From Cordylochernes scorpioides (lineage: Eukaryota; Arthropoda; Arachnida; Pseudoscorpiones; Chernetidae), in NCBI GenBank assembly GCA_030710605.1, contig CP092880.1, forward strand, positions 15,170,454 to 15,234,453: a DNA stretch of 64,000 nt. The letters run 5' to 3'. Under the pieces are notes generated by a model. That model did not search any database and was not told the DNA's origin. It worked only from the letters and a program-made list of their open reading frames with translations. Position 1 is the first letter of the stretch. Each line of letters begins with the position of its first letter. The position numbers were made by a program, and so were the translations under genes. Of the stretch, positions 4,074 through 64,000 are shown piece by piece.

Positions 4074-4099
4074 TTTGAGTTACAAAATATGCTGTTGCA

Positions 4100-4119
4100 C
4101 CGTCCTGTCGCGGACGCCA
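4100..4119 (-). promoter_or_regulatory. Primer-binding site of the BEL/Pao element
   Basis: Minus-strand TGGCGTCCGCGACAGGACGG lies five T residues downstream of the LTR end. It resembles the TGGCGACCGTGACAGG-type sites of BEL/Pao elements that prime from a tRNA 3' end. The exact tRNA was not determined. Confidence 0.7.
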
Positions 4120-4124
4120 AAAAA

Positions 4125-4544
4125 TGTCGAGCTTTGAACAATGAAATTCGTATCACTGGACGGTGTAACCAGCATAAAATAATTAAAACTATAGCAACTC
4201 AATGATTGCTGTGAAGAATGAAGATTTATTTATAATTGATACAAAAATTACAGGAAAAGTATTACTTCAAAAGAGAGAGATAGAGTTTTTAGTCTCGAGA
4301 CGCGAGCAGGCGTCGACAACAAGTAGAGAACAACGAGCAGTGGGGGGCGTGAGAGGGCGGAAGTTGCATCATGGGCGTGACCGCCGCCGCTCGCGCCGCG
4401 GGGGAGGAGGGGGGCGTCTTCTTACACGGCTTTCTTACATTTTGAAGGGGCCTCCCTCTGGTTATCTTCAAATAAAATGTGAAATTAAAATGCACACACA
4501 AAAAAGACAGTGGATCTGCAACACTCCACATCTGGGCGCTACAT
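4125..4544 (-). repeat. 5' LTR of the BEL/Pao element
   Basis: About 420 bp, starting (minus strand) TGTAGCGCCCAGATG and ending TCGACA directly before a short T run and the primer-binding site. It holds a GC-rich block (4370-4420). The start is inferred from the TGT/ACA pair and the sequence change to LINE at 4545; the second LTR is not available for comparison. Confidence 0.75.
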
Positions 4545-15048: not shown

Positions 15049-17973
15049 CTGGAAGATAATTCTTTGACAATAGTTAATGGAATATCTAGAGGGGATAAAG
15101 ATGGAGATTATACATACATATCTGAAAGAGGCTCTTCGACTATTGACTATTGCATACTCTCACAGGGTTCACTGCAAATTTTACTGGACTTCAAAGTCGA
15201 TGACCAACTGTACTCTGACCACCACCCTTTGGTTTAACGATAAAAGGCCAAAACTTCAATGAGAAAAAAAAACAAACAGGAAGATTATAATAATACGAGA
15301 TATAGATGGTCAGCCGAGGGACTCGCAATGTTTAAAATGAAACTGGAAGAATTGCGGGAAAAAAAACATACCAGCCTCCGATGACCTTGTATATACTTTC
15401 AATCAGCGAATTTTGGAAGCAATGTCATCTGCAAAAATAACGTACTCAATTAAGGGCGGCCCCAGGAAATCTAAGCCGTGGTTCGATAAGGACTGCTATG
15501 ATATGAAAAAACTGGCAAAAGAAAGTCTGAAGAAATATCGTAAAACAAATAGATTGGAAGACAGGGAATGTTATGCTTCTTCCAGAAAGAAATATCTCGC
15601 TTTATTGGATCTAAAAAGGAAAGGCTTTGATAATGAAAAACAGGAAATACTCAGAAATGCTAAAGACTCAAAGACCTTCTGGAAAACTATTGCGCTCTAC
15701 AAAAGCACATCTATAATCCAAGGAGAAATAGCTATACAGAACTGGCTGAACTTTTACCGCGAACTAATGACTACAGAGAAAAATTTGAGAATTTGTAATT
15801 TACATAATGTGATTTCTCAGAACGATCCTATATTGGACTAAGAGATAACCAATGCAGACATATACAAGGAGATAGCTGGTTTGAAGAGTAACAAGGCATG
15901 CGGGCCCGATGGCATCCCCAATGAAGTATTAAAAATACTCCCTGATTCGTACATACTGCTGTTGAAACAACTCTACAATAGTGTTATGACGACTGGAAAA
16001 TACCCAGCAATTTGGACTAATTCCACTATACACCCAATCTTTAAAAATGGTTATAAGAACAGCCCCTCTAACTACCGAGGTATTGCACTGATTAGCAATG
16101 TATCAAAGCTTTTCACTTCAATCCTAAGATCAAGACTGGAGGAATGGGTCGAGGGAAGAGGGTTATACCGGAAAACCAAGCGGGATTTAGAAAAGGAAGA
16201 TCATGTATTGACCACATATTTACACTAACTACTTTAATCCAACTATCATTAAGAAAAAAGAGGGGAAACCTATGTCTTTTTTGTCGATCTAAGGAAGGCA
16301 TTTGATATTGTACCTCACTCAATACTTTGGAAAAAACTTTACAACCTAGGCATAAGTTACCAATTCATAAGTACGATCAGAAGTTACTACGAACAAGCAA
16401 CTATAGCTATCAGATGGAAGGGATCATTCACGGAAAGTATTACGATAAACTCGGGAGTCCTCCAGCGAGAACCACTTTCCCCACTGCTCTTTATATTATT
16501 TATCACGGACTTAATCGAAATTTATAATAATTCAGACCTGCCGAGTGTAAATTTGCCAGGATTTGGAGATATCCATTTATTGCTGTACGCCGACGACATA
16601 GCAATTATAGGTGAGTCCAGGATGAACCTCCAAAAGAAGATCAAAATACTGAAAGAATATCTCGATGAAAACTTAATGACACTAAATGAGTCCAAGTCAA
16701 AGATTATGGTGTTCCGTAATGGAGGTAAACCCTCAAATAAGGATAGATGGTTCTGGAATGATAAACCCATAACAATAACTTCAAGATATACATACTTGGG
16801 ATTCCCTCTGACACCAAAAATAACAACTACTCACCCGGCAAATTACTTTAAAAGAAAAATACTTACAGCAATTAACGCCACACACCCAATATTAATAAAA
16901 TCAAAAGCAAAGTCAATAAATTTATCAAGCAAACTCTTTGATACAATAGTGAGAGCTGTCCTGATGTATGCCGCTCCATTGTGGGCAACAGAGCATAAAG
17001 ACTTACTGGACAGTATACAAGACATATTTATCCGTAGGTTCCTGAATCTGCCCACATACACTCCAGGCTTCATAATCAGATTAGAAACCGGTCGTATCTC
17101 TTTGAGTGTAACAGCTTTAAAATTAACCCTGAAGTATTGGCTGCGGTTGTTGAATATGAGCAGTGACAGATTGCCGCGTATATGTTTTAATAGAACACGG
17201 GAACTGTCTAATGCTTCGGGCACACCCATCGGCTTCATTAAAAAGCTCAACAATCTGCTTAACAATAATGGATCCCCTGCACTTGTTTCCTGTGATGATC
17301 CTGAAACGCTGAGGAGCGCGATTACAGGGCTCTTAAAAACAGCGGCAGACCAATCTATACAAAACGACCTTACAAGAATAGATAAATCTAAGCTATACTC
17401 TCACTACAAAGACATTCACATATTTTTCATGACGGAGGGATACCTTTTAGGGGATTTTCCTTTCCCGGTTGTAAGACTACTCTCACAAGTTAGAATACTT
17501 TCAAGTTTTTTTAGAGAAACCACACCAAGATGCTCTGCGGTGAGGACCCGATTTGTACCTTCTGTAATTCAAAACTAAAAAATTAAATCACTCACTATAT
17601 TTTTGATTGCTCTGCTCTGAAAGAAGAACCCTTATGCTCAAAACTGGGCAACTCTGTGCTTCACTTCCATCAATAATTGACAATATGACCCAGAATAAGT
17701 ATATTGCTACGGCGTTTTATGGTTTCCACAAGTCCATATCTGAGAAGAAGGCCAAGTGACACTCACTCCTCACTTTCTTACTGCTACTCTTTTTGTGTTG
17801 TTTTTCTTGCTTCCCTCTTTCTCTTTCTTGTTTTTTTTTTTCTTTTTTTTTTTCTTTTTCTTCTGTATATATCGTTATTTCCTTTGTCTCACTGCTTTGT
17901 TCTTATGCATACCTCTGGTGAATCCTGTATAGGGTCAGTGACCCTAAATAAAGGCTTTTTGTTGTTGTTGTTG
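15049..17973 (+). mobile_element. LINE-A copy, 5'-truncated in the endonuclease, with target-site duplication
   Basis: Bounded by ACTATTATAATGA (15036-15048) and ACTATAATAATGA (17974-17986), a 13-bp duplication with one mismatch. It starts inside the endonuclease domain (GDYTYISERGSSTIDY, SDHHPLV near 15100-15235) and ends with GGGTCAGTGACCC, AATAAAGG and a (TTG)4 tail. The last 430 bp match 62.9-63.36 kb, so both copies are one family. The ORF1 seen in the second copy and the RT features suggest the CR1/L2/jockey superfamily; the clade is not certain. Confidence 0.88.
15413..17578 (+). pseudogene. LINE-A ORF2 (RT region), stops and frameshifts
   Basis: The frame opens with the pre-RT linker (15413-15840), meets an in-frame TAA at 15839-15841, then continues with the RT start (KSNKACGPDGIPNEVLK, NYRGIALISNVSKL). 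A shift near 16165 moves PENQAGFRKGRSCIDHIF to another frame, and another lies near 16255 before FVDLRKAFDIVPHSILW. From 16553 a 341-codon frame holds LLLYADDIAIIGES, the catalytic box, and KSKIMVFRNGGKPS. A last shift near 17530 separates the C-terminal zinc knuckle (CGEDPICTFCNSK), which is in frame in the other copy. The YADD residues are intact, so the copy decayed by a few lesions only. Confidence 0.85.
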
Positions 17974-17986
17974 ACTATAATAATGA

Positions 17987-36494: not shown

Positions 36495-39395
36495 CAGTGT
36501 TACCTACTGCACTCTAACTCCTTACTGCGTTTTAGGATTACCTACTGCACTCTAACTCCTTACTGCGTTTTAAGATTACCTACTGCACTCTTACACCTTG
36601 CTGTGTTTTAGGATTACCTACTGCACTCTTTCTCCTTGCTGCGTTTTAGGATTACCTACTGCACTATTTCTCCTTGCTGCGTTTTTGGATAACCTACTGC
36701 ACTCTAACTTCTTACTGCGTTTGAGGATTACCTACTGCACTCTAATTCCTTACAGCGTTTTAGGATTACCTACTGCACTCTAACTCCTTACTGCGTTTTA
36801 GGATTACCTACTGCACTCTAACTCCTTACTGCGTTTTAGGATTACCTACTGCACTCTTACTCCTTACTGCGTTTTAGAATTACCTACTGCATTCTTACTC
36901 CTTACTGCGTTTTAGGATTACCTACTGCACTCTAACTTCTTAATGCGTTTTAGGATTATCTACTGCACTTTTACTCCTTTCTGCGTTTAAGAATTACCTA
37001 CTGCACTCTTACTCCTTACTGCGTTTTAGGATTACCTACTGCACTCTAACTTCTTACTGCGTTTTAGGATTATCTACTGCACTCTTACTCCTTTCTGCGT
37101 TTCAGAATTACCTACTGCATTCTTACTCCTTACTGCGTTTTAGGATTACCTACTGCACTCTAACTTCTTTCTGCGTTTTAGGATTACCTACTGCACTCTA
37201 ACTTCTTACTGCGTTTTAGGATTATCTAATGCACTCTTACTCCTTTTTGCGTTTCAGAATTACCTACTGCACTCTTACTCCTTACTGCGTTTTAGGATTA
37301 CCTACTGCACTCTAACTTCTTACTGCGTTTTAGGATTATCTACTGCACTCTTACTCCTTTCTGCGTTTCAGAATTACCTACTGCACTCTTACTCCTTACT
37401 GCGTTTTAGGATTACCTACTGCACTCTAACTCGTTACTGCGTTTTAGGATTATCTACTGCACTCTTACTCCTTTCTGCGTTTCAGAATTACCTACTGCAC
37501 TCTTACTCCTCACTGCGTTTTAGGATTACCTACTGCACTCTAACTTCTTACTGCGTTTTAGGATTATCTACTGCACTCTTACTCCTTTCTGCGTTTCAGA
37601 ATTACCTACTGCACTCTTACTCCTTACTGCGTTTTAGGATTACCTACTGCACTCTAAGTTCTTACTGCGTTTTAGGATTAACTACTGCACTCTTACTCCT
37701 TTCTGCGTTTCAGAATTACCTACTGCACTCTTACTCCTTACTGCGTTTTAGGATTACCTACTGCACTCTAACTTCTTATTGCGCTTTAGGATTATCTACT
37801 GCACTCTTACTCCTTACTGCGTTTTAGGATTACCTACTGCACTCTTACTCATTACTGAATTTTAGGATTACCTACTGCACTCTTACTCCTTACTGCGTTT
37901 TAGGATTACCTACTGCACTCTTACTCCTTACTGCGTTTTTAGGATTATCTACTGCACTCTTACTCCTTACTGCGTTTTAGAAATATCTATTGCACTCTTA
38001 CTCCTTACTGCGTTTTAGGATTACCTACTGCACTCTAACTCCTTAATTCGTTTTAGGATTACCTACTGCACTCTTTCTCCTTGCTGCGTTTTAGGATTAA
38101 CTACTGCAATCTTATTCCTTTCTGATTTTTAGGATTACCCACTGAACTCTTACTCCTTACTGCGTTTTAGGATTACTTACTGCACTCTAACTCCTTACTG
38201 CCTTTTAGGATTACCTACTGCACTCTTTCTCCTTGCTGCGTTTTAGGATTAACTACTGCACTCTAACTCCTTACTGCGTTTTAGGATTAACTACTGCACT
38301 CTTTCTCCTTGCTGCGTTTTAGGATTAACTACTGCAATCTTACTCCTTACTGCGTTTAAGGATTACCTACTGCACTCTAAATTCTTACTGCGTTTTAGGA
38401 TTACCTACTGCACTCTCACTCCTCACTGCGTTTTAGGATTACCTACTGCACTTTAACTCCTTACTGCGTTTTAGGATTACCTACTGCACTCTAACTCCTT
38501 ACTGCGTTTTAGGATTACCTACTGCACTCTAATTCCTTACTGTGTTTTAGGATTATCTACTGCACTCTTACTCCTTACTGCGTTTTAGAAATATCTATTG
38601 CACTCTTACTCCTTACTGCGTTTTAGGATTACCTACTGCACTCTAACTCCTTAATTCGTTTTAGGATTACCTACTGCACTCTTTCTCCTTGCTGCGTTTT
38701 AGGATTAACTACTGCAATCTTATTCTTTTCTGATTTTTAGGATTACCCACTGAACTCTTACTCCTTACTGCGTTTTAGGATTACTTACTGCACTCTAACT
38801 CCTTACTGCCTTTTAGGATTACCTACTGCACTCTTTCTCCTTGCTGCGTTTTAGGATTAACTACTGCACTCTAACTCCTTACTGCGTTTTAGGATTAACT
38901 ACTGCACTCTTTCTCCTTGCTGCGTTTTAGGATTAACTACTGCAATCTTACTCCTTACTGCGTTTAAGGATTACCTACTGCACTCTAAATTCTTACTGCG
39001 TTTTAGGATTACCTACTGCACTCTCACTCCTCACTGCGTTTTAGGATTACCTACTGCACTTTAACTCCTTACTGCGTTTTAGGATTACCTACTGCACTAT
39101 CACTTTTAAACTCGTCTTCGGATTACCTACTGCACTCTAATTCCTACTGTGTTTTAGGATTACTTCCTGCCTTCTTACTCCTTATTACGTTTTAGGATTA
39201 CTTCCTGCACTCTTACTCCTTACTGCGTTTTAGGATTACCTACTGCACTATTACTTCTAACCTCGTCTTCGGATTACCTACTGCACTCTTACTCCTTACT
39301 GCGTTTTAGGATTTCTTACTGCACTCTTACTCCTTACTGCGTTTCAGGACTACCTACTGCACTCTCTTTCGTTACCGCATCTTCGGATTACCTAT
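36495..39395. repeat. 38-bp satellite, main block (about 76 units) with higher-order structure
   Basis: Monomer CCTACTGCACTCTAACTCC + TTACTGCGTTTTAGGATTA, 38 bp, continuous without spacers. From about 36940 to 37800 units alternate as a three-unit repeat (114 bp; one member has CTTTCTGCGTTTCAGAATTA). A block of about 525 bp at 37946 recurs at 38554, a shift of 608 bp = 16 units, almost unchanged. The open frames across it are by-products of the repeat. Confidence 0.95.
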
Positions 39396-49696: not shown

Positions 49697-50068
49697 ATTT
49701 GAGACAAGAATAATGATACAATTCAAAGGCAAGATACTATTCCTTTAACTTCCAATTACCGAGGGAACCAATTAATATTGATTTTATTCAACTTATCGAG
49801 TATTTTTCAAGGGACCGGGAAAAAATGTTCACTTTATCGAGAGATTCGTTAGACAAACCTTTACTCGGGTAAAACCCGGGCGAAGCCGGGTACGTCCATA
49901 CAAGAATAATGATACAATTCCAAGGCAAGATACTATTCCTTTAACTTCCAATTACCGAGGGAACCAATTAATATTGATTTTATTCAACTTATCGAGTATT
50001 TTTCAAGGGACCGGGAAAAAATGTTCACTTTATCGAGAGATTCGTTAGACAAACCTTTACTTCGGGTA
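49697..50068 (+). repeat. Tandem duplication of the Helitron 3' region
   Basis: About 210 bp (ACAAGAATAATGATACAATT to TCGTTAGACAAACCTTTACT) is repeated from 49906. The first unit ends with the full 3' hairpin (ACCCGGGCGAAGCCGGGT, 49872-49889) but lacks CTAG. The second unit is interrupted by LINE-A and completed at 63.36-63.40 kb. Confidence 0.85.
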
Positions 50069-50527
50069 GATTCGCCGCTAGGTGGCCGGACAATAAACAG
50101 CACGTGCAGCACCGCTCCGGTAAATATACAGGGTGATCCAAAAGTCCCGCACAACTTTAAAAATTAATAACTCCGCGAATATTTGCGTTAGAGCAATGCG
50201 GTAAACACCATTGTGTTCAGGATGCAATGGGATTTTTTATGGCAAATAATGAAAAATTCGAAATTGATTTTAGTTACAATTTTATTCACCAGATGGCGCT
50301 CTACCAGATTCAGATATTCAGCGGCCAGATTGTTTGATAAATTGAAAAATATAATTGAACGACACGTATTTTTCCTTTTTGAATACCAGGAAAGAACCCT
50401 AATAATATCAAATAACAAATTAATAAAACACCACTTCGCCAAAAGTATGAAGAATTGGTTAACGATTTTCAAATACAATCAGAGATATGTAAAATAGGCA
50501 AATGCAAATTAAAACATGTAGCAAAAA

Positions 50528-51110
50528 TATTTATATTTTATATGGGGTTTTGTGAAATAGATTGAATGTTTGAAAAATACTGCTGATATCAATACACGAA
50601 TTTTGATATGTTAATATAGTACCAAAAATTATGATGGCACTACTAATAGGATTTCTTGCTATAAGAAATGTGTAGTTTCTTGACTAATTGGAGACCCTTG
50701 ACTATTTAACTGGATATTTCTCATGATCCAACAAATGAAATATAGAGGGGAGTGACAAAATATATTTGTCGTACTTTATTCCAAATATCCTATGGGCTTG
50801 TCAAATGTTATCATTGTTTATTATACTGTACACAATTTTAAAAAATGTTTCCCCTCAAATAAAAATAATTTTTAAATAGACCTTTTGCGTTGAAAAACGT
50901 GGTAGTAAAATCATTTTGTATTATTTTTTTTCACAAAATTTCTAAAGTTATTGGTATACAGAAAATATTCCTTATGCTATTTCTTCTAATGAGCGAAAGG
51001 CGAAAACTAAACATAAGGGGAAAAATTGTGTGTACCAGTGTTATTCGAGAAGTTATAACACTCTGGTTTGCACGACATAATATGTGAGCAAATGACAAAC
51101 AAAAAATTAC
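50528..51110. other. Transposon interior, no gene seen
   Basis: AT-rich sequence between the left inverted repeat and the transposase remnant; presumably transposon non-coding DNA. Confidence 0.4.
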
Positions 51111-51113
51111 CGT

Positions 51114-51960
51114 TCACAAATAAAAAAAGATAGTCAAGATGTGAGGACAGCATTTATTATCCCCATATCCCAACACAAAGAGCTGCAAAATATTGGTAGA
51201 TAATATAATACATGGCGGCTTATATAACACATGAGGTAACTGCCTTCTCTCTTGTATTAGGTCACAATCCTTGCTCAATGTGGCACCCTTCATTCTCAAT
51301 CACCGCCTGCAGACGATAAATGACAGAATGGACAGCATTAAATAACATATCTGTTGAAAATTGATAAAACGTGCCATCTGATAGAAGCCTTCAACATGGC
51401 CAATGTGGTAGGCCAGCATCGATAAACACACGATTTAATGTACCCCCATTACAAAAATCGCAAGGCGTCAAGTCTGGTGATCTTGGAGGCCACTGGTATA
51501 TAAAGTGGCGACTTATCACACGATTTTCACTGAACGTATCCTTCAGCAATTGTTTGGCACCTCGGGAGATATGAGGAGGTCCTCCATCTTTCATGAATGT
51601 TATTTCGCTTAGTGCTTTTGCCCTGCAATATGGGAATACCCTTTTCTCTCAAAAGTTGGACATAACGTTCATCAGATACAAAAACGGTTTTAAAAGTTCT
51701 TCCATTGATTTTACAAAGAAAAATGGCCCAATAATAAAAGAAGTGAACCCACACAAAACTGTAACTCTAGGCTGGTAAAGTGGCATTTCTGTAAAAATCC
51801 TAGGGTTGTCTGTTGCCCAAATGCGGCTGTTTTGAATGTTAAATTCTCCGTTTAGAGAAAAGTGAGCATCATCTGTCCACAGAACATTCGACAGCCAGTT
51901 TCATCAATATCAATTCGCCAGAAAACCCATGCAGCGAATTCTTGACGCATCTCAAAATCG
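51114..51960 (-). pseudogene. IS630/Tc1-superfamily transposase, C-terminal half
   Basis: Minus strand: NVLWTDDAHFSLNGEFN (first catalytic Asp block, about 51870), RIWATDNPRIFTEMP, VTVLCGFTSFIIGPFF, then MKDGGPPHISRGAKQLL (second Asp block, about 51590) and WPPRSPDLTPCDF, the classic order of the arthropod DDE families of this type. Several stops and shifts. The N-terminal DNA-binding half is missing because LINE sequence starts at about 51960. Confidence 0.85.
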
Positions 51961-54490
51961 CCAACTTTCAGCTCGTGAAATCTTTGAATTTTGTATGGGT
52001 ACACACAATAGAGACATTAAGTGAAGCGTCTTCGGATATCACAATCATACTCGGCGAATTTAACGCCAAAAGTTCAATTTGGGGATCACCTGTCCTGGAT
52101 AACAAAAGTCAGCAGGTTGAGGACATGCTAACAGACCTCGACCTTACACCGTTAAATAACGGAGAGAACACCTATCTAAGTCCACAGGCACAGAATCCGC
52201 AATAGACATCACAGCGATAAATTACAACATCGCACCCACAACACAATGGAAAATCATGAGAGGTGCAATCAGTGACCACAGACCAATTTTAACAACCCTA
52301 AACTTCAAAATTGAGAACGTCCATTAGAATAAAAGAACATGGGACTTTAGGAAAGCCGACTTGAAAAAAATTCACAGAAAAGCTTGAAGAACTGTGCAAC
52401 GAAAAATTGAATTACAGAACGCTTGACAAAAACTTGGAAAAATTCTCTTCGAACATTTCAAAATCTGCAAAAGCATCGATACCTAGAGGTAGACGTAAAG
52501 ACCTGTGGATACCTTACTGGAAGGACCACAACATCGAGGCAGTGATTTCAGAGAGAGAGACAATATCAATGAACTTCTTAAAAAATAAAACAGAAGAAAA
52601 CAGAAAGAACTCATTGAAATTAGTCACAAAATAGAAGAAGAAATTTGGATATGCAAACAAGAAAAATGGCAGAATTCTGCGAAAAAATGGATCCAAGAAA
52701 GGACAGCCAACACTGGAATATGATTAGAGTGTTAGAGAACAATAAACACCAACACCAATCCTCCAATACTCTAACCGATATGAATAGAACAGCGCGAACG
52801 AGAACAAACAGATGGCTGACATAATTGCTGAATATCTTTCAAGCACTTCCATACTCAATTATACGAATGAAGACAGGACTCTAAAAATAATATAAACCAG
52901 TTAGTTAAACAAGCAAGAAACTTCCATCAACAAGATATTTTCTCGAAAGACTTCACACTGAATGAGCTAAACTTATCAATAAAAAAATCCAAGAGGTCAC
53001 CAAGAGATAATCTAATCTTTGGTTAAATGATCAAACACTTTGAAGACAAAGCTAATAATCAACTCCTACGAATACTGAAAATTTCATGGCAAACTGGTAA
53101 ACTACCAAAGAATTGGAAGATATCAATTATAGTGCCAATACTGAAGCCAAACAAAGATGCCAAGGAATACAAGAACTATCGGCCAATTGCTCTCACCAGC
53201 AAACTTTGTAAAATACCAGAACGAATTATCCACTCTAGGCTCATAGTCTGGCTCACTAACAATAATAAAATAAACCTCTACCAAACTGCCTATAGATCCC
53301 AACCATGTACGACTGATCAACTGCTTTACTTCTGTCAATCAATAATAGATTCTTTCCAGGAAAAGCCGCCAAAGAAGACCACGGCTATATTCCTTGATAT
53401 GACCTCAGCTTTTGATCGAGTGTGGAGGGAGAAATTACGCGAAAAGCTGCACAACATCGGAGTAAGAGAAAAACCTTAATCTGGATTGCAGACTTCTTAA
53501 GGGGAAGAAGGTTAAAGGTTCGGGTCAATGGAGAATTTTCCAAGGAAGGAAGAACATGGGCTGGTGTAACTCAGGGATCTGTGCTCAGTCCTCTACTTTA
53601 TCTGCTATATATTAACGACATCCATCCTTAGCTCAATGAAGACACAAAGGCTGTCTGTTATGCAGATGATATAGCCATATGGCACACAAGTAGCAGCATA
53701 GAAAAATCGTAAAAATACTGAACACATCAATGAGAGGACTGGAGAAGTGGGCAATGGAACTCCAAATGACCATAAACCCAATAAAACCAACCTATGCGTC
53801 TTCTCCACTCACAGGGAAAAAGGCATAAATATAACAAAAAATAAGCATAAACAAACAAATGATTGATAAAATTAGAAATCCATAATACCTAGGTGTGATA
53901 CTGCAGTCCTGTATCTTTCAAGTTGGTCTCGAGGACCACGCCATCACCATCTCCTAAGCGGCAAAGTACGCGATCTACGTATTCATCGTAGATAGCAAAA
54001 TGCGTGGTGTCGCCGGAGACCCACTGGCGATTCTCCACAAACTCTGCAGCGCTGGAAGAGGCGCCATATTCATTGTACATAGTGTATATAATGCATATTA
54101 TCTTTTTTTAATAGTGCAGACTGTGCATGTATTGACAAGATGTCAACAAAATTATTTTAATTATTATTGATGAGGAATTGGAATTTTCAGAACACATAAT
54201 TAGCACCTCAAATAGAACTATCAGAAAACTAAACATTCTGAGAAGGCTATGTGGAACAAATTGGGTAGCAAAACCCAGAATTCTCAGAACAACATATACC
54301 ACCTAAATAAGGCCGATAATGGAATATGCAACACCGGTCTGGGCTCCCTCAAGCTCATCACTAAAAGTAAGACTAGACAGTGTTCAAGCAAAAGCGGCCA
54401 AAATAATCACTGGTGCTGTTTCAATCACCAACAATGAGAAAATTCAGAGAGAATGTGTTCTAGACCTACTCGCTCGAAAGCAGAAGACAA
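51961..54490 (+). pseudogene. Jockey-type LINE (LINE-D): endonuclease end to RT, broken
   Basis: Endonuclease piece ITIILGEFNAKSSIWGSPVL; linker KASIPRGRRKDLWIPYW; RT with TGKLPKNWKISIIVPILKPN, NYRPIALTSKLCKI, IFLDMTSAFDRVWR, GVTQGSVLSPLLYLLYINDI, AVCYADDIAIWHTSS (box intact near 53660) and, after an insertion, ELEFSEHIISTSNRTIRKLN and MEYATPVWAPSSS. Multiple frameshifts. RNase H is missing; the next LINE starts at about 54.49 kb. A 256-bp foreign piece sits at 53912-54167. Confidence 0.82.
53912..54167 (-). other. GC-rich foreign insert in LINE-D, origin unknown
   Basis: LINE sequence breaks after YLGVILQ (53911) and resumes at ELEFSEH (54168). The insert begins with about 160 bp of GC-richer DNA that is open on the minus strand (ASSSAAEFVENRQWVSGD, THFAIYDEYVDRVLCRLGDG), followed by AT-rich sequence. 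It resembles an exon or transcript fragment; I do not recognise the protein. Confidence 0.4.
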
Positions 54491-56903
54491 AATAAAAACA
54501 ACTTGGATCGGCACTTCGGAAACGAGGAACCAAAGGACGAGATCTTTCTGACCACTTGTGGTTTGGAAGATCCGCCCTTTTCTGAGAATGAGGTTAAACT
54601 GACGGCTTTCAAGTTCGGGAAAAGGAAATCTCCTGGTCCCGAAGGGATCGATAACACGGTCGTGAAAGCCCTGGTAAGGATGCACCCATCGCTTCTTTCC
54701 AGGTTATTCAATAGGTGCCTGGACACTGGTACTTTTCCTGAGGCATGGAAGGTTGCCCGAGTAGTGCTTCTAGAAAAGTCTGGTAGAAAGGGTAATTCTC
54801 CTAATGATTATCGTATGCTTTCTTTACTAGCATGTCTAGGTAAGGTCCTGAATAGCCTACTAGCTCAGCGACTGAAGCACTGGCTAGAAAGTAATGAGCT
54901 CCTTTCCTCTTTCCAACATGGTTTTAGGGAAGGGAAGTCCACAACCACAGCTCTGAACGAGGTGTTAGAGGGGGTTGAGATGGGCTTAAATAAGGGTGCT
55001 TGGGTTCTTTTCGTGGCCCTGGACATTGATGGCGCGTTCAACTCCATGAACTGGAACAAGCTGATGAGAAATTTGATGGACATGGGTTGCCCTGATAATT
55101 TGTGCAGCTTGGTTCGTGACTTCCTGAGGGATAGACGGATTAGCCTCAGTTTTGGTGGGCGGAAGTTGGAAAGAAACTGTGCTAGGGGTTGCCACCAGGG
55201 CTCTTGCTGCGGACCTATTCTGTGGAATATCCTGGTAAACACCGTTTTCCAGGAGGAGCTCCCTGAGGGAGCCAGGCTGGTTCTCTAAGCTGACGATCAG
55301 TTCCTCATTGTTGAGGCTGCTTCGAGAGCGAAGGCTGAGAAGTGTGTTGAAACTTCTCTCCAAATTCTCTCGAACTGGGCCCATGACTCTGGCCTTAAGT
55401 TCAATGTCTCCAAAACTAAAGCCCTCAGCTTTAAGCCTAGGGACATAAGAACTAAAAGGAAAGGGATCAAATGGGAACACAAGCCGGCTATCGGGATCGA
55501 AGGACGGAGGGTAGCGTTGGTCAATAGGATGACCATCCTGGGGGTGGTCATTGATGACAAGATGGGTTGGCAATACCAGGCGGAGGAGATGGTGGAGAGA
55601 GGCAGGAAGGCGTTGTGCAGGCCTGTCCTGGTTGGCTCTCAACAGGGGGGGGGAAGGAGGGTACTATTTTTAGGAACCTCTGCCTCTCCTGTGTCGAGCC
55701 AATCCTGCTATATGCTTCCAGGGCTTGGTGTCGCCGAAACAGGGATCAGAAGGTGGCGACTACTCTAGAGAGAGTGCAGAGGTTAGCGGCACTCAGAATC
55801 ACAGGGGGATATCGCACTACCAGCAGTGAGGTCTTTTTGGTCCTCGCTGGTCTTATTCCCCTGGAGTTGAAACTAGAGGAGGAGAACATCAGACAGAAGA
55901 TCTAAGAGAACAGGGAAGATGCCCTGGGACTTGAAGCGGGAGCCCTGGAATGGAAGAGGGACCCAAGAAAGCCTCCGCAGTGGTTGCCAAAGTGGAATTG
56001 GAGTCCTGGAGGGCCGACAGGGAATCGGCACGGAGGTTTTCACTGATGGGAGTAGGTCTGGAACCAATACTGGAGCTGGGATAGTGATTTTCACTAATGG
56101 AGAGCTGATCTTCCAAGAAAGTTTAACACTCAGAGTGGACGAATTGGTCTTTTCAGCCGAGCTGGTTGCGATCAGGGTAGCCCTCAGAGTGTGTGCCGAG
56201 AAGAACTTCAGCCCGGACCGCCTCTATTCAGATTGTATGTCAGCCCTCGTCGCCATCAATCTGGAGAAAGGGCAACTCGCGCATCAAATAATCCAGGAGC
56301 TGGAGATGATGACGCGGGCTCCGGAGCTCCCTTGGTTTAGGAGACACAGCCTCATCGAAGGTAATGAGTTCGCAGACAGGATATCTAAGGCAGGATGCTT
56401 AAAAGGTAGATCACCGAGGACCACAGTGACCAAGAAAGAAGTTTATAGGAGGATCAGGGGGCACGTCCAGGACTTATGTTTGGACAGATGGAGGAACATT
56501 GTGAAGGGGAGAGAGTTATTCAATGGGGTAACAACACCCAAGTACCTCTGTAAGGTAATGTCCCACAAACTCATTAGGGTAGTTTGGGACATGGGCTCTT
56601 CCCCAAGTCTCCACAGATTTGAAATTAAGAGCAATCCTGATTGCGTCTGTGGAGAAAGGGATGAGAATGCATGCCACTACGTCTTGGATTGTCCAAGGGT
56701 AGTGGGTGTGCAGGAAGAGAGAAGGAGGGCGAGGGGCGCGATCGAGACTGAGCTGCTGAGAAATCACAGCAAGCTTCTTGAGAAGGCCCACGACGTGGCA
56801 GCTGAGCTTTTCCTCAGCTGTGAGTGAACAGAGTCGACCGGGGTCTGCCTCCCCGCGGTCCCTGCTGGGCACAGTAGATAGTTTCCTATTTTGCTGTGAT
56901 TAA
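54491..56903 (+). mobile_element. R1/LOA-type LINE, 5'-truncated
   Basis: GC-richer than its neighbours. RT, RNase H and a C-terminal zinc knuckle are present; it ends with a short 3' UTR at GCTGTGATTAAA. The 5' part (endonuclease) is missing. It abuts the 3' end of an oppositely oriented LINE at about 56904. Confidence 0.82.
54503..56827 (+). pseudogene. R1/LOA-type LINE ORF2 with a stop at the YADD tyrosine
   Basis: RT: FGKRKSPGPEGIDNTVVKAL, NDYRMLSLLACLGKVLN, FQHGFREGKSTTTALNEVL, FVALDIDGAFNSMNWNKL, ARGCHQGSCCGPILWNILV, then RLVL*ADDQFLIVEA: the codon of the YADD tyrosine is TAA (55286-55288) and the frame continues unchanged after it. A shift lies at the G run near 55648, then LSCVEPILLYASRAWCRRN follows; further breaks near 55905 and 56000. 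RNase H from 56030: EVFTDGSRSGTNTGAGI, VFSAELVAIRVAL, LYSDCMSALVAI and GNEFADRISKAG (four catalytic positions kept). C-terminal knuckle: CVCGERDENACHYVLDCP. Confidence 0.85.
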
Positions 56904-59900
56904 AGGCCACCGGTATATAAATCCTTCAAGACACGTTGTCTGGGAGGTGGTGTTTCAAGGTACAATGTCCAATCACTAGCTTGGATACCGTTACTTGGCT
57001 TATGAGTTGAACAGAATAGCAGCGAAGTCATGCTTCGCATGCCGGCTTGTGGACCGAAAGGTCTGGGTGGCCATCTGCTTCTAGGATATACCAACTGTGC
57101 TTAGGTGGGATCCTCCAGTTCTTGTTATTTTGACTACTGTTTCTATTTCTTTGAAAGTAAGTTTATTTTTCTGTAGCAATGGTTCTTTTGTGCCTTTTTT
57201 CGCTAGCGCATCAGCAGCTTCATTGCCTTCAATGCTAACATGTAAGAGTATCCATTGAAGGTGAATTTTTGAGGTATTGAGAGTTTTTGGAGATAACCAA
57301 TTATGTTCCTGCTTACTTTGTCTCTAAGTTCCCCTGTGTGACTCAAGTGTTGTATGGCACTTCTACTATCAGTAAGAATCCATATATCGTGATGTTTAAT
57401 GTTTCTGATGGATTTTAAGACTTCATAGATGGCTATAAGTTCTGATCTGAAGACTGAGCAAAATTCTGGGTTTCTTCTGTTTATTTTCTCAATGCCATTT
57501 GTGGTTTTAATGAGAGAGCCACTGCCAGTGTGTCCCAACTCATCTCTGCTACCTTCGGTATAGATAGTTATTGCATTTTTAGGAATTTTATTAATTATTT
57601 CTAATGATAATTGTTTTAAGTATTCTGGATTTGGTATTGTCTGTTGGTGGTTTCATTTAAAGTGGCATTAAAAATAACATTTTGTTAGTGGTTCGCATGG
57701 AGATATTTTTTTTCAGCTAAATAATATTTTTCCACTTTATATTTTAAAAATCCATTTCTTTTGGCCAGGTGGAGAGGGCCTTCTTTTTTGAGTCTTAGAT
57801 TGGATTCCCAATTAAGTATGTAATTGAAAGTTCTGTGTTTGTTTTCATAACTCTTGATTTTGTTTATATATTTTGCAGATTGTAGCTTATTCTATTCTTT
57901 AAGGGCATAATGTCTGCCTCGTAAAGTACGATATCATTAGGACAGGGTTTTCGAAGACCTGTAATAATTCTAGCTGCACTTAGTTGTATCCTTTCCAGTG
58001 ATTTTAGATTTGTTTCAGATGCTGTACCATAGATTTGATATCCATATTCCAGGATAGGTCTCATTAGAGATGTGTAAGTTAATTTTATTGTTGATGTTTC
58101 AGCTCCCCACTCTTCCTGAAATATATTTCAAGATTTTTAGTCGGTCTTTTCCTTTTCTAACAACTCCTTCAATATGCTTACTGGAGTTGATTTCTGGATC
58201 CAGGGTGTAGCCGAGATATTTAGGATGTTTATTATATTGCAATTGTTGTTCTTTCAGAATAATATTTGGTCTTATTTTGTATAGTTTCTTATCGGTAGTA
58301 AAAAGACAGGTTTCAGATTTTTGGGGGTTAAATTCTAATTTATGTTTATTAGAAAATTTTTCTAGGTGGAGAAGAGTCTTGTTAAATCTCTTTCAGCTTT
58401 TTTCCAGTTAGTGCTGCTGCTCCATAGAATAATGTCATCAGCGAAAAGTCCAATATTGGTTTTATGTGAAATTTATTTTTCTATGCCTGCAATAAATAGG
58501 GTGAAGAGAGTTGGGCTAAGGACTGATCCTTGTGGTAATCCTTGGTACAATTTGAAGGTTTTAGATAGAGTGCCATTATATTTGATCCTGATTTATATAT
58601 TTTTAAGAGAATCATTTATCCAAGTGATAGCTTTTCCATCAATTTTGAAATGTTTGTATAATTTTGTAATTAACTTGTTTTTCCATACCTTATCAAAAGC
58701 TTGTGTAAGGTCTAAAAAGCAGCTATGGTGTGGTTAGTTGGTTTTCGTTTTGTGTATCTTTTACCTTTTGTGTGAAAAATAAGAGTTGGTCTATTGTCCC
58801 ATGTCCTTTCCTAAATCCATATTGTTCTTCTGGTAAGATATTTCTTGTGTCGGGGTGGTAGGTGAGTCGTCTGAGTATAATTTTTTTCCATTAATTTGCA
58901 GCAAATATTTGTTAGGGAGATAGGTCGGTAGTTTTTTGGGTCATCAGCAGATTTGTCAAGTTTTATAATGGGAATCATTGTTGCATTTTTACAGTCTTGA
59001 GGCAATTTTCCAGTTTTCCAGGAGTTATTGAAAATATTAAGAAGTCTTTCTTTGCCAATTTTGCCCAAGTTTGATATCATTCGGCCATGGATTCCATCTG
59101 GCCCAGGAGTCTTGTTTAGGTCAGTGTTTTCTAATGTATAAGCTAGCTCTTTCATATTGATTTTTTTAATGGAAAATATTATGAGTGCTGGTGACATTTT
59201 TACAGTCATGAATAATCTTTCGAGCCTTTTTTCAACCTTGATTTTACTACTTATTTGATATGAATTACCTAAAAGATTGGCAGCAATTTTGTCATAAGTT
59301 GCTGGTGTACCATCTGTATTCTTAATCATATTTGTGTTTTCAGTTTGTGGCTGGACTCTGTCAATTTGTTTTGCCCAATTCCAAAGTTTTGTATTTGGGT
59401 TTCTTGGGTTCAGGTTTTCACAAGTTTGTTTCCATTTTTTTCCTTTCCACATTTACGTATAATCTTTTTTTATTTTTGCAATCACAATGTTCAGTTCAGT
59501 TCTACAATATTTTTGGTTTTGGGTGCACTTTTTTGTAGTTCATTTCTTTTAGTTATAAGTGTTTGAATATTTTTTGCCTGGTGTGTATAATTTGGAATCC
59601 ATTTCTTAATATTGCCTCTTGGTATTGAAACTTTGGCTTCTTTAATAATGGTGTTTTCGAAAGATATCATATTAGCCTTTTTGAAGTTCCAGAATTTTTC
59701 TTAATTGAGCTAGTTTTGTTCTTGGTGCTATTTTCCATCAAATTAGGCAAATGATCACTTACAAAACTTTTTAATATTTGCTATTTGCATTTGTGGAAAA
59801 TGTCAGGATAGTAAAACCTTATATCAAGGGCTTGTGCAGTATTATAGCTTGTTGGAATGATGGGTAGGATTCCCATCATTTAAGCACATGAAGGCATTGT

Positions 59901-60190
59901 CGTCAAATATGTTTGAAAGTATTTTGCCTCTTGGGTTTGGCGTAGAACATCCCCATAGTTGATATTTGGCATTAAGGTCACCTACAATAATAGTGTTGTC
60001 TGTAAGAAATTGAGCCATTGTTCCATCGTCAATAAATGTATTGTTTGGAGGGTGATACATATTGTATATGTGGATGGCTTCGTTTTGATTGAGGTAGACT
60101 TTGATACCTTGGGCTTCGAGGTCTAATGTGTTTGTAATATTAACAGCTATGTCCTCATAGTACAAATTCTTGATTAAAATTGCTAGGCCA
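56904..60190 (-). pseudogene. Jockey-type LINE (LINE-E), endonuclease-RT-RNase H, minus strand, broken
   Basis: From right to left: endonuclease (VRGLAILIKNLYYEDIAVNI, HIYNMYHPPNNTF, IIVGDLNAKYQLWGC), linker, RT (NKTPGPDGIHGRMISNLG, NYRPISLTNICCKLMEK; the plus-strand text at 58.4-58.75 kb is the reverse of the palm region), MRPILEYGYQIYGTASETNL, RNase H (FRSELIAIYEVLKSI, WILTDSRSAIQHLSH, EGNEAADALAKKGTK). Several frameshifts. The 3' end meets the R1-type LINE tail to tail; the 5' end is truncated in the endonuclease. Confidence 0.82.
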
Positions 60191-60194
60191 CGCA

Positions 60195-60992
60195 CTTCAA
60201 CAGCATATACAGATGGATCTTCAGACCTTACCCTGAGTAATGGAGGGGCCGGAATTAACATAATACTGCAAGATGGAACAAACATCAAAATCAAAGAAGG
60301 AGCAGGACAGATTTCGTCAAACTTCACTTGTGAACTGACAGCTATCTGGAAAGCCCTTGATGTATGCCCTGACCAACCATCCCTGCATCAAGCAGAAGGA
60401 ATTTTAATATACAGCGACTCCATATCCGCTCTAGAAGCAATTCAGAAGAGCAATACTAAAATCAAACAGAAAATACACTCGTTACTTACCCAACTGGAAC
60501 CATTGGAGAATAACTGCATTCTACATTGAATCCCTGCCCATGCTGGGATCAGGGGTAATGAAATGGCATTCGAATTGGCAAAGGAAGCCAGAAAGTTGAG
60601 CCAAAGGAAAGAACAAATGTCATTATTTGACGCTGATTCTTTGTCAAAATACAAGATAATTAAACAAACAAAAAATAAGAAAAGATCAAAATGCGAAATA
60701 AACTCTGAGAGAGAAATGACAAAAACTATAACAAGACTTAGAACAAAACACTTTAAAGGAATGACAATACATCCAGATGGCACAAGAACCTATAGGGCAT
60801 GCAACAATTGTCCTGGTGTGGAACTTACACCTACCCACATATTCTTATAGCCAGCAATGGCCGCAGCCTTGCAGAAAATTAGACATAGACCCTGAGCAGC
60901 AGCTTTACACACCTAAGATAGTGGACATTGCTGCTGCTGTGATGTAGTACATGGATACATCTGAGGCTCTTTATTGGACACGACAACAACAA
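60195..60992 (+). pseudogene. Jockey-type LINE 3' fragment: RNase H and C-terminal knuckle
   Basis: RNase H reads AYTDGSSDLTLSNGGAGI, FTCELTAIWKALDV, ILIYSDSISALEAIQ and, after a shift near 60525, IPAHAGIRGNEMAFELAKEA. The C-terminus has TRLRTKHFKGMTI and CNNCPGVELTPTHI. It ends in a (CAA)n tail near 60980-60992. It faces LINE-E head to head but is a different family. Confidence 0.78.
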
Positions 60993-61585
60993 CGGCATTC
61001 CAGAGTAAAATAAATTATCAGAGATAGATACATATTTTTCAAATGAATTAAAATAAATATAATCGATACTGAGTGAGAGTTGAATTAAAAATATTAGAAA
61101 TTTATTATCTTCGGAAACAAACCGTATCTGAAAATATCAATTTTCTTTTTGCTACATGTTTAATTTGCATTTACCTATTTTACATATCTCTGATTGTATT
61201 TGAAAATCGTTAACCAATTCTTCATACTTTTGGCGAAGTGGTGTTTTATTAATTTGTTATTTGATATTATTAGGGTTCTTTCCTGGTATTCAAAAAGGAA
61301 AAATACATGCCGATCAGTTATATTTTTCAATTTATCAAACAATTTGGCCGCTGAATCTCTGATTCTGGTAGAGCGCCATCTGGCGAATAAAATTGTAACT
61401 AAAATCAATTTCGAATTTTTCATTATTTGCCATAAAAAATCCCATTGCATCCTGAACACAATGGTGTTTACCGCATTGCTCTAGCGCAAATATTCGCGGA
61501 GTTATTAATTTTTAAAATAGTGCGGGACTTTTGGATCACCCTGTAGTTATATTACTAATATTTCAGTGTATATTTGCCTTATACT

Positions 61586-62545
61586 ATGAAAGGGATAATA
61601 CGGTTACTCCTAATACTTGTGGTATGCAACACTAAATATGTAAATTTACTCAAAGTAACGCACTATGCAAAAATCTCAGTACGAAGGGATAATGATGGAC
61701 AATGTGGTCAAAATATAAACTTACCATCTGGGAATATATCTGGTAACCAAAAAAGACTGCTATGTATCATTCTGGCTCTATTATTTATCTCAGGCATTGA
61801 ACAAAACCCAGGCCCCCCAACCAAAAGGCAAACTACATTGACTGCGCCAGTACACTCAGGAGAGAGAGAATCAATAGATGGCGAGCTAAAAATGCTAATC
61901 TTAAACATGGCGGCGGAAATAAAGAGTCTAGGAGAGAGAATTGACATCAGAATTACCAAAATAGAGACTCGAATGGACGATTGGAATATGCGATTCTGCA
62001 ATATGGAGGAGAAGCTAACTAAATGTATAGAGTCTCAACAGGCTACCGAAAAATTGGCTTCATGTAATTCGTTAAAGGTAAATGAACTGGAGGCTAGAGT
62101 CGAATTTTTTGAGACGAGACTGCGTGAGTCCAATCTAGTGTTCTATGGTATTGAGAGGGAGGGTGACGAAAACCAGGCAGATTGTAACTTAAAGATTCAA
62201 AACGTAATTAGAGATAAAATGGAAATCGGAGATGATTTAAAAATAACAAAATGTCACCGACTTTCACGCGGATCCAATGCACCAGTTCTTGTTGTGGTGC
62301 CTGATTATGCTGATAGAGCAAACATATTTAAAAATGCCTACAAACTCAGAGATACTAAAATATCGATAAGTAAAGATTATAGTAAAAATGTTAGAGAGCA
62401 ACGGCGCATCCTAATTGCAAAAAGGAAAGAATTGGGTGAAAGGGGAATAAAATCGAAGTTGAGAGATAACAAGCTTTTTGTAAATGATAAAGTCTGTAAA
62501 GTGATGAATGGCCAAGTTGTTGATAGCACAGGAGCTGCTATATAG
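61586..62545 (+). CDS. LINE-A ORF1 protein with 2A-like peptide, coiled coil and RRM-type domain
   Basis: ATG at 61586 (MKGIIRLLLILVV), 319 codons, no lesion. Residues 4-13 and 57-69 are hydrophobic. Residues 70-77 read GIEQNPGP, matching the 2A core [I/V]ExNPGP; ribosome skipping would separate the product between Gly (61811-61813) and Pro (61814-61816). Next come a Glu/Lys-rich heptad-like stretch (about residues 90-165; MRFCNMEEKLTKCIESQQAT), an RRM-like domain (RESNLVFYGIEREGDE, HRLSRGSNAPVLVVV, ADRANIFKNAYKLRDTKI) and a basic C-terminal domain (REQRRILIAKRKELGERGIK). The layout fits ORF1 of CR1/L2-type LINEs, an RNA-binding trimer-forming protein of the retrotransposition particle. Confidence 0.85.
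   Translation: MKGIIRLLLILVVCNTKYVNLLKVTHYAKISVRRDNDGQCGQNINLPSGNISGNQKRLLCIILALLFISGIEQNPGPPTKRQTTLTAPVHSGERESIDGELKMLILNMAAEIKSLGERIDIRITKIETRMDDWNMRFCNMEEKLTKCIESQQATEKLASCNSLKVNELEARVEFFETRLRESNLVFYGIEREGDENQADCNLKIQNVIRDKMEIGDDLKITKCHRLSRGSNAPVLVVVPDYADRANIFKNAYKLRDTKISISKDYSKNVREQRRILIAKRKELGERGIKSKLRDNKLFVNDKVCKVMNGQVVDSTGAAI
61799..61816 (+). promoter_or_regulatory. 2A-like ribosome-skipping site in LINE-A ORF1
   Basis: Codes for EQNPGP at the end of LALLFISGIEQNPGP. The family motif is D[V/I]ExNPGP; here the first position is Gly. The hydrophobic upstream stretch agrees with known 2As. N-terminal 2As in sea-urchin and other LINEs and NLR genes have been reported to act as translational recoding signals or alternative signal peptides. 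Confidence 0.7.
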
Positions 62546-62879
62546 CAACAACCTCGTAGAAACATTTGTGTAAATAGAAGAAATACGACATCAAAATCAC
62601 AAATTAATTCTCCACCCAACAATCAAATAACGGAAAGTTACTTCGACACAAATACATGTAAATTCGATTTTCAAGACGCTGACAATGCAATTTTTTCTGA
62701 AAATTCGCGAGACATAGATTAGACAATTCAGAAAAGGATGGCACTTGGTTATCTATTTTCTTATCAACAAACACAAGAGCCCTCCAACACGTTATCTGTT
62801 TGATATTTGTATACCTTCCTCCAAACCAAATACAGCTGCATAACTTAGATAAACTGTCTACATATATTCAAAAGCAAAT

Positions 62880-63357
62880 AGCAGATGGAAATTTTTTAGA
62901 GAAAACCACACCAAGATGCTCTGCGGTGAGGACCCGATTTGTACCTCCTGTAATTCAAAACTAAAAAATGAAATCATTCACTATATTTTTGATTGCTATG
63001 CTCTGAAAGAAGAAAGAAGAACCCTTATGCTCAAAACTGGGCAACTCTGTGCTTCACTTCCATCAATAATTGACAATATGACCCAGAATAAGTACATTGC
63101 TACGGCGTTTTATGGTTTCCACAAGTCCATATCTCAGAAGAAGGCCAAGTGGCACTCACTCCTCACTTTCTTACTGCTACTCTTTTTGTGTTGTTTTTCT
63201 TGCTTCCCTCTTTCTCTTTCTTGTTTTTTCCCCCTTTTCTTCTTTATATATCGCTATTTCCTTTGTCTCACTGCTTTGTTCTTATGCATACCTCTGGTGA
63301 ATACTGTATAGGGTCAGTGACCCTGAATAAAGGCTTTTTTGTTTGTTGTTGTTGTTT
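62880..63357 (+). pseudogene. LINE-A ORF2 C-terminus and 3' UTR
   Basis: CGEDPICTSCNSKLKNEIIH and YIFDCYALKEER form the zinc knuckle, in one frame to KAKWHSLLTFLLL. The 3' UTR has GGGTCAGTGACCC (5-bp stem, AGT loop), TGAATAAAGGC and a TTG/TTTG repeat tail. It matches 17.5-17.97 kb closely. Confidence 0.85.
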
Positions 63358-63400
63358 GTTACTCGGGTAAAACCCGGGCGAAGCCGGGTATGTCCGCTAG

Positions 63401-64000
63401 TATTTAAATAAAAATATATATGTCTTTTTTATATTTTAGAAAGCATTATTTGTTGATCATGGATATATCGTATATATTTCATGTACTAATTATTTTTCAA
63501 ACATTGACGTTTTAAGATAGCAAAAGAAAATAAATATAAAGTATATCCCTTTACGCCAAAAAACGAATATATATTTCAGAAAAAAAGAACAACAGAAAAC
63601 CTGAAATATAAATAATAATAAGAGGGGCATATGTATCTAAAAAAAATAATATTATTTTAAAAACAAATATATTCGTTTTTTAAAAAGGTTCAAACAATTT
63701 TAAAAAATGAATACAAGTAAATATTTAAAATGACTCACTGCTGGGGCATTTCGACAATATTTTATTATGAATATGAATATGAATATGAATATAAATGATA
63801 ATGCATTAAATATTTAAGAAATATGATTTTCGAAGCGCTTTTGTTTTAAAAATTATCATACTTGTTAAGCCTACAATTTAGAGAAATAATTTTACATAAA
63901 ATTGATAAAATGTTGTCTAAAATCCCGATACAATTATACATTTTTAATGATATGTGAAGGAATATTTAAAAATAACTCACAATTAAGTAAAGGATTGCTT
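63401..64000. other. No feature recognised
   Basis: Very AT-rich; a small ATGAATATGAATATGAATAT microsatellite near 63766-63792. No gene on either strand. Confidence 0.5.

Follow-up and report, generated by a model that had tools for sequence, protein, structure and literature searches.

A LINE Family with a Conserved 2A/StopGo-Type Motif behind a Hydrophobic ORF1 Leader, a TAG-C Junction to ORF2 and an ORF2-Deleted Subfamily

Layout of the LINE Copy

The window, i.e., the whole 64-kb stretch of DNA that was analyzed, contains a LINE copy in two parts. The LINE copies, their parts and the flanking heptamers described below lie on the forward strand; no strand was assigned to the insertion between the two parts. 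The first 59 bases of the copy, representing the 5' end of its 5'UTR, are located at 50070–50128 (98% to positions 1–59 of the natural copy L032), and the rest of it, with 5'UTR, ORF1, ORF2 remnant and 3' end, at 61546–63354. The insertion of approximately 11.4 kb (50127–61545) is situated at a TA in the 5'UTR and is bordered by 387-bp terminal inverted repeats that are 97% complementary; the match to the LINE breaks off at one side of it and resumes at the other. Its ends, TACAGGGTGATCC...GGATCACCCTGTA, are presumably mariner-like, and it contains reverse transcriptase-like pieces. The LINE copy is 5'-complete, yet its 5'UTR is split by this insertion, and its own 5' end may fail to drive its expression.

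From 61547 onwards, the copy matches element positions 62–1230, 1459–1644 and 4253–4740 of L032. The 5' remnant of ORF2 (62546–62891) is initially in the ORF1 frame and has a small internal deletion near 62706–62715. A 2.6-kb deletion, which other copies have in common with this one, joins it to the 3' end of ORF2 and the 3' tail (62892–63354). The heptamer TCGGGTA occurs at 50062–50068 and again at 63363–63369 and is a probable target-site duplication, for which 7 bp constitute modest evidence.

At 15049–17978, this LINE family is represented by a further copy, which is 5'-truncated and consists mostly of ORF2 (96% to L032). As separate observations, the sequence behind the LINE at 63363–63401 (ACCCGGGCGAAGCCGGGTATGTCCGCTAG) resembles, as we assume, a Helitron 3' end, a tandem array of about 76 copies of a 38-base unit occupies 36500–39394, and a TTAGG array is present on C1, all places listed belonging to one array; it gives a faint indication of an arthropod.

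ORF1 and Its 2A Core

ORF1 (61586–62542, ATG at 61586, TAG at 62543–62545) is open over 319 codons and carries the 2A/StopGo core GIEQNPGP at residues 70–77 (61793–61816), directly behind the hydrophobic run RLLCIILALLFIS. The frame, the core and the preceding run had been placed at these coordinates in the preliminary description, and the coordinates proved correct. Skipping is predicted between G76 and P77 and would release a leader of residues 1–76 (61586–61813) ending in NPG. Two hydrophobic segments are present in this leader: a signal-sequence-like one at residues 3–15 (61592–61630), with a 13-residue Kyte–Doolittle mean of 2.4, and a second at residues 58–70 (61757–61795), with a 13-residue mean of 3.0, which reaches into the 2A core.

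The predicted ORF1 protein proper (61814–62542) would begin with Pro77 and comprises a QTTL motif, a coiled-coil-like stretch and a conserved C-terminal domain. The QTTL motif and the C-terminal domain are based on invariant alignment columns, and profile and structure database searches with ORF1 yielded, among the matches listed, only those of coiled-coil type. A likeness to L1-type ORF1p (coiled coil, RRM, CTD) is our assumption; homology to L1 ORF1p found no sequence support among the matches listed, there being no match to L1 ORF1p or Transposase_22 among the Pfam and PDB matches listed (best 60 of 326; first 25 of 47 families).

Within the element, no ATG comes before that of ORF1, and in L032 about 100 nt without an earlier ATG lie ahead of it, an argument that assumes transcription starting at the first base of the element. 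A start downstream of NPGP was considered and rejected as the likely start, as the first ATG lies upstream of the motif and ORF2-bearing copies keep the leader.

The NPGP DNA pattern was matched once in the 64-kb window against 0.54 matches expected, which is weak by itself; the case for a 2A therefore rests on conservation genome-wide.

Full-Length Copies and Related ORF1 Groups

The genome searched was the window's own assembly (2.62 Gb, 24 contigs). In a whole-ORF1 search, the best 125 of 5,327 first-look candidates were 93–100% alike, and 89 of these 125 best-scored copies had no internal stop; 19 of the 125 have an identical score, suggestive of a young subfamily. Three natural copies (L031, L032 and L033) extend over the full length of the element and are more than 99% alike. 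A single TAG separates ORF1 of L032 from an open frame of 1,150 codons that encodes an endonuclease and a reverse transcriptase; the ORF2 domains (P0002) corresponded to PF14529, PF03372 and PF00078, with PDB matches to LINE-1 ORF2p and R2. By these domains, the element can be assigned to the APE-type LINEs (non-LTR retrotransposons); its 5'UTR comprises about 100 bases. A scan of both the prokaryote-genome and the virus-contig collections confirmed no relatives there.

According to the preliminary description, full-length copies that lacked NPGP, or whose ORF1 started behind it, would mark the motif as a product of chance. The motif was kept in all four copies that were read with ORF2 sequence behind ORF1 (L031, L032, L033 and L037).

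For comparison across related families, 12 ORF1s from nine groups were aligned, with 36–57% identity between groups; three within-group pairs were left out of the pN/pS calculation. All rows except those of the window and L032 had been found through the core. They were drawn from 20 loci, 11 of which had an open ORF1 with leader; L057 was omitted as near-identical to L058, and nine loci were omitted as broken (L061, L062, L066–L069, L071, L075 and L076). L052 and L037 were also left out of the alignment, as same-family copies.

A separate observation concerns L059:1306–2601, L060:1306–2601, L058:1300–2601 and L072–L074, in which ORF1 and the start of ORF2 appear to have been shuffled between families at the TAG. 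L059 and L060 have ORF1 in common (93%) and ORF2 starts that diverge further on, the ORF2 start of L059 being like that of L058.

ORF1–ORF2 Junction

In the window, the ORF1 stop TAG is followed by CAACAACCT (62543–62554), the proposed readthrough site. The end of ORF1 was read for 13 groups, in all of which TAG was followed by C; the next triplet was CAR in ten of them (in the L063/L064/L084 group, for two copies out of three), CTA in two and CGC in one decayed copy. Exceptions were TAG-A in one of 30 copies of the window subfamily and L087, which has lost its ORF1 end and stops at TGA. The full UAG-CAR-YYA sequence, which is the tobamovirus readthrough motif (PMC3542737), was present only in L082, most groups having UAG-CAR only.

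The endonuclease motif lies in the ORF1 frame in six of the nine groups whose downstream sequence was read. Five of these six have no ATG ahead of it; L032 reaches its first in-frame ATG at ORF2 codon 341, beyond the entire endonuclease match. For the other three groups (L063/L064, L065 and L072), the fetched copies had no endonuclease motif in the ORF1 frame. From TAG-C, the in-frame ORF2 and the lack of an ATG before the endonuclease, it is likely that ORF2 is made by UAG readthrough.

It could be argued instead that the 2A works and that ORF2 is reached by reinitiation, a non-AUG start, frameshifting or splicing, TAG-C being inherited or serving termination. Reinitiation has LINE precedents in SART1 and L1 (PMC5972666) and would be possible in L057/L058, where in-frame ATGs lie ahead of the endonuclease; in L064, the endonuclease motif is shifted by two bases relative to the ORF1 frame and lies in an open stretch, an ATG standing immediately ahead of it. 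A stable 3' stem behind the stop, the lack of which also fits such a route, was not found (100 mononucleotide shuffles per sequence, z −0.6 to 1.7). However, neither the position of the first in-frame ATG in L032 nor the five groups without an ATG ahead of the motif agree with it, and the same frame and TAG-C recur although synonymous sites are saturated. This route to ORF2 is accordingly regarded as unlikely.

Leader and StopGo Context

In all 12 sequences measured, the leader was 71–82 residues long and had hydrophobic segments at two places, one close to its start and one just ahead of the core, separated by a polar or neutral stretch. The residues before p12 are L-rich (LLFIS, LLLIS, LLLMA, LLIIG and similar across groups) and end in S, A or G; this context was judged by eye against motif 5 of PMC12846837, an L-rich upstream class ending in (A/G/S)G. 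The window sequence GIEQNPGP fits the expanded StopGo core (D/G/C/N)(V/I)ExNPGP of the same paper, and the G, C and D forms were all found genome-wide.

In the preliminary description, Gly in place of Asp had been thought possibly new. This does not hold, as G and C at p12 are known StopGo variants (PMC12846837, PMC6249498): in RNA viruses, G is as prevalent as D and C is an active variant (PMC12846837), and GxExNPGP gives skipping (PMC6249498).

Synonymous sites were saturated across the regions of the 12-ORF1 alignment, with pS of 0.71–0.81. The pN/pS ratio was 0.11 for the eight-residue core (at pS 0.745), 0.45 over 22 residues including the core and 0.40 for the C-terminal domain. For the leader it reached 0.84, its amino acids evolving almost freely.

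A conventional signal or membrane segment that closes with a conserved NPGP turn, with no skipping and with ORF1p membrane-anchored or secreted by design, would also account for the two hydrophobic segments in each of the 12 sequences. Skipping is here a prediction, and chimeric 2A contexts are often inactive (PMC12846837). Such a segment is nevertheless highly improbable, since it is exactly the StopGo positions that are fixed (p12 as G, C or D; V/I; E; N, P, G, P), whereas the hydrophobic residues vary, and p15 can, like its viral 2A counterpart, be occupied by various residues (Q, S, P, L). The reading of the preliminary description, a conserved 2A/StopGo-type motif placed to free a 76-residue hydrophobic leader, was upheld as a prediction, for a family that has full-length copies.

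Genome-Wide Conservation of the Core

In the 2.6-Gb genome, G(I/V)ExNPGP gave 986 + 1003 = 1,989 matches, in many codon spellings, compared with 1 + 1 in the reversed control. The C-type core gave 128 + 139 = 267 matches against none, and the D-type core 11 + 4 = 15 against 1 + 1. Eleven of the 15 D-type loci were read, the reverse-lying L047, L051, L053 and L055 being outside that reading; L043 and L052 were single G-to-D copies of the window family, and other loci belonged to related families. A cluster of D-type ORF1s (DIEPNPGP/DIELNPGP) with short open frames was observed at G000:C9:27560700-30003457 (L045, L046 and L048–L050).

Because most alignment rows had been found through the core, three further samples were taken without the core as a condition. 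In the first, based on the C-terminal part of L063, which represents another family than that of the window, at least 150 copies were scored, and 10 of them fell within the part of C1 covered by the core list; by eye, the core was at the exact offset in nine of these 10 loci and lacking in one. In the second, a whole-ORF1 query for the window family, the core was present, again by eye, in all 11 loci of the covered part of C1.

The third sample was based on a DNA pattern for KLRDNKL at the ORF1 C-terminus, with 2,106 matches compared with 24 in the control. Among its first 100 loci, taken with no 2A condition, a G-type core was found upstream in 50, at 603–664 bases in 49 cases and at 949 in one, and a C-type core 649–735 bases away in 12 more. 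This corresponds to 62 of 100 loci with a G- or C-type core and 38 with neither. When 12 of the 50 G-type misses were fetched, two were C-type, already among the 12 mentioned. Ten of the 38 were read: three contained GVELNPGP with a codon outside the pattern, one had a decayed GVEHNLGP in a frameshifted copy, five had no recognizable ORF1 sequence over the core and one was unrelated, so that no intact ORF1 without a 2A was seen among these 10 of 38.

A chance NPGP in a decayed LINE, with which the 0.54 matches expected in the window would agree, is ruled out by the genome counts against their controls (1,989 v 2, 267 v 0 and 15 v 2) and is further opposed by the several codon spellings, the conservation across groups and the presence in ORF2-bearing copies, leaving it a negligible probability. 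Judged from these counts, the 2A core in ORF1 is not a matter of chance.

Pairs of cores 132 bases (44 codons) apart were also observed on C1 of G000, at 88090229/88090361, 92169229/92169361, 118291302/118291434 and 138243507/138243639. This doubled-2A subfamily perhaps carries a tandem double StopGo. L066 has two cores spaced 133 bases apart, with the frame broken.

Half-LINE Subfamily

The ORF2 deletion of the window copy, from element position 1644 to 4253 (2.6 kb), was present in 29 of the 30 best-scoring loci (L001–L030, window included). The sole exception was L004, whose 3' side does not align. Five more small deletions were noted behind ORF1, in different copies. No internal ORF1 stop was found in 26 of 30 copies read codon by codon, a share that is biased upward, as the 30 copies were chosen by ORF1 similarity. 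The window sequence served as L001 in the codon-by-codon set, and the set was formed without L034, L035, L036 and L038 (the same places as L002, L006, L009 and L003, respectively), L053 and L055.

Since the deletion is common to 29 of 30 loci and ORF1 is free of stops in 26 of 30 copies, the window copy is, on the evidence of these alignments, a member of a half-LINE subfamily that has spread, and its deletion is not a private lesion.

A search for the deletion junction gave 641 candidates, of which 40 were scored; approximately 14 of these 40 were, by eye, among the ORF1 matches listed, and two other junction copies that were read (L089 and L090) were 5'-truncated deletion copies. In half-LINE ORF1, singleton changes amounted to N31:S27 and shared changes to N10:S7 plus one shared stop, for a neutral expectation of 0.69:0.28. 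These ratios are suggestive of selection on half-LINE ORF1, in a sample that is small and was chosen by ORF1. The idea of the preliminary description that ORF1 could have been kept without ORF2 is borne out in part: the common deletion and the 26 stop-free copies favor it, whereas the choice of the sample by ORF1 and the existence of 5'-truncated deletion copies count against it.

Proposed Mechanism

The motif, its position and conservation, the two hydrophobic segments, TAG-C with an in-frame ORF2 in six groups and the common deletion are best explained as a whole by an ORF2-deleted LINE copy with 2A leader release, UAG readthrough and a half-LINE subfamily, an explanation that we consider probable.

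The first ATG in the RNA of the element would be the translation start, and the ribosome would make a leader of 71–82 residues with two hydrophobic segments. At NPG/P, the Gly-Pro bond would fail to form, the leader would be released, and ORF1p would continue, starting with Pro. At UAG-C, mostly UAG CAR, a minority of ribosomes would read on in frame and produce an ORF1p-ORF2p fusion with endonuclease and reverse transcriptase. In the absence of the 2A, the signal-like leader would direct both ORF1p and any fusion protein to the secretory pathway; the 2A would keep the working proteins cytosolic. This step is modeled on sea-urchin NLRs, whose leader combines a signal sequence with a 2A, the skipped product being cytoplasmic and the fused product going to the secretory pathway (PMC4981915). 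The window copy, having lost most of ORF2, would depend on ORF2 protein from full-length copies. We infer skipping and its efficiency, the fate of the leader, readthrough and supply in trans from the features of the sequence.

More tentatively, and about as open to doubt as to belief, the lineage may follow a virus-style plan with one start codon: StopGo would free a two-helix membrane peptide, ORF1p would follow, and UAG readthrough would then give a minor ORF1-ORF2 fusion, a ratio control resembling that of gag-pol. The ORF1-only derivatives would keep StopGo and ride on the fusion of the full-length copies.

These families make available numerous natural StopGo sequences of the G and C types, and they do so in a cellular genome, a setting in which StopGo is rare (PMC12846837). 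It has long been asked how a LINE obtains its ORF2 protein from an RNA with two frames, and these elements make a clean case of it: the endonuclease lacks a preceding ATG, the context of the stop is conserved, and copies that are nearly identical are available for testing. A further question is why a retrotransposon conserves a leader of the membrane-peptide type and then cuts it off.

Comparison with Known Systems

LINE 2As are known in CR1 and other clades; the L1Tc element is a single long frame with an N-terminal 2A. HAL1 ("half-a-LINE") of mammals is an ORF1-only derivative of an autonomous LINE, like the subfamily described here; it differs in belonging to another LINE lineage, and here ORF1 carries a 2A. 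A 2A in a LINE and G and C at p12 are already known. Added here to the preliminary description are TAG-C at the junction, an ORF2 in the ORF1 frame that lacks an upstream ATG, the N-terminal hydrophobic segment and the related families. The literature searched, available in excerpts and with the central 2A-LINE papers outside it, gave no description of UAG readthrough joining ORF1 and ORF2 of a LINE, nor of a retained two-segment leader combined with a G/C-type StopGo and a same-frame UAG-C junction with no start for the endonuclease.

The LINE 2As of a 2013 paper (cited in PMC4981915 and PMC12846837) likewise show a StopGo-type core in an APE-type LINE. In the families described here, p12 is mostly G or C, compared with D in the motif quoted by PMC4981915, and an in-frame TAG-C junction to ORF2 is present in addition. 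In contrast to the trypanosome L1Tc 2A (cited in PMC5972666 and PMC11512398), a TAG divides ORF1 and ORF2 here. Tobamovirus-type readthrough (PMC3542737) shares UAG followed by C, mostly CAR; unlike there, YYA is complete only in L082, and the host element is a LINE.

Viral StopGo sequences of the L-rich motif 5 (PMC12846837) likewise have G at p12 and an upstream context ending in (A/G/S)G, whereas the sequences described here belong to a LINE lineage, with G, C or, rarely, D at p12. Sea-urchin SpNLR2A (PMC4981915) also has an N-terminal leader ending in a 2A, there tested for skipping and dual targeting. SpNLR2A sequences belong to host immune genes, readthrough not being described in the excerpts of that paper, whereas the leader reported here belongs to a mobile element and has two hydrophobic segments.
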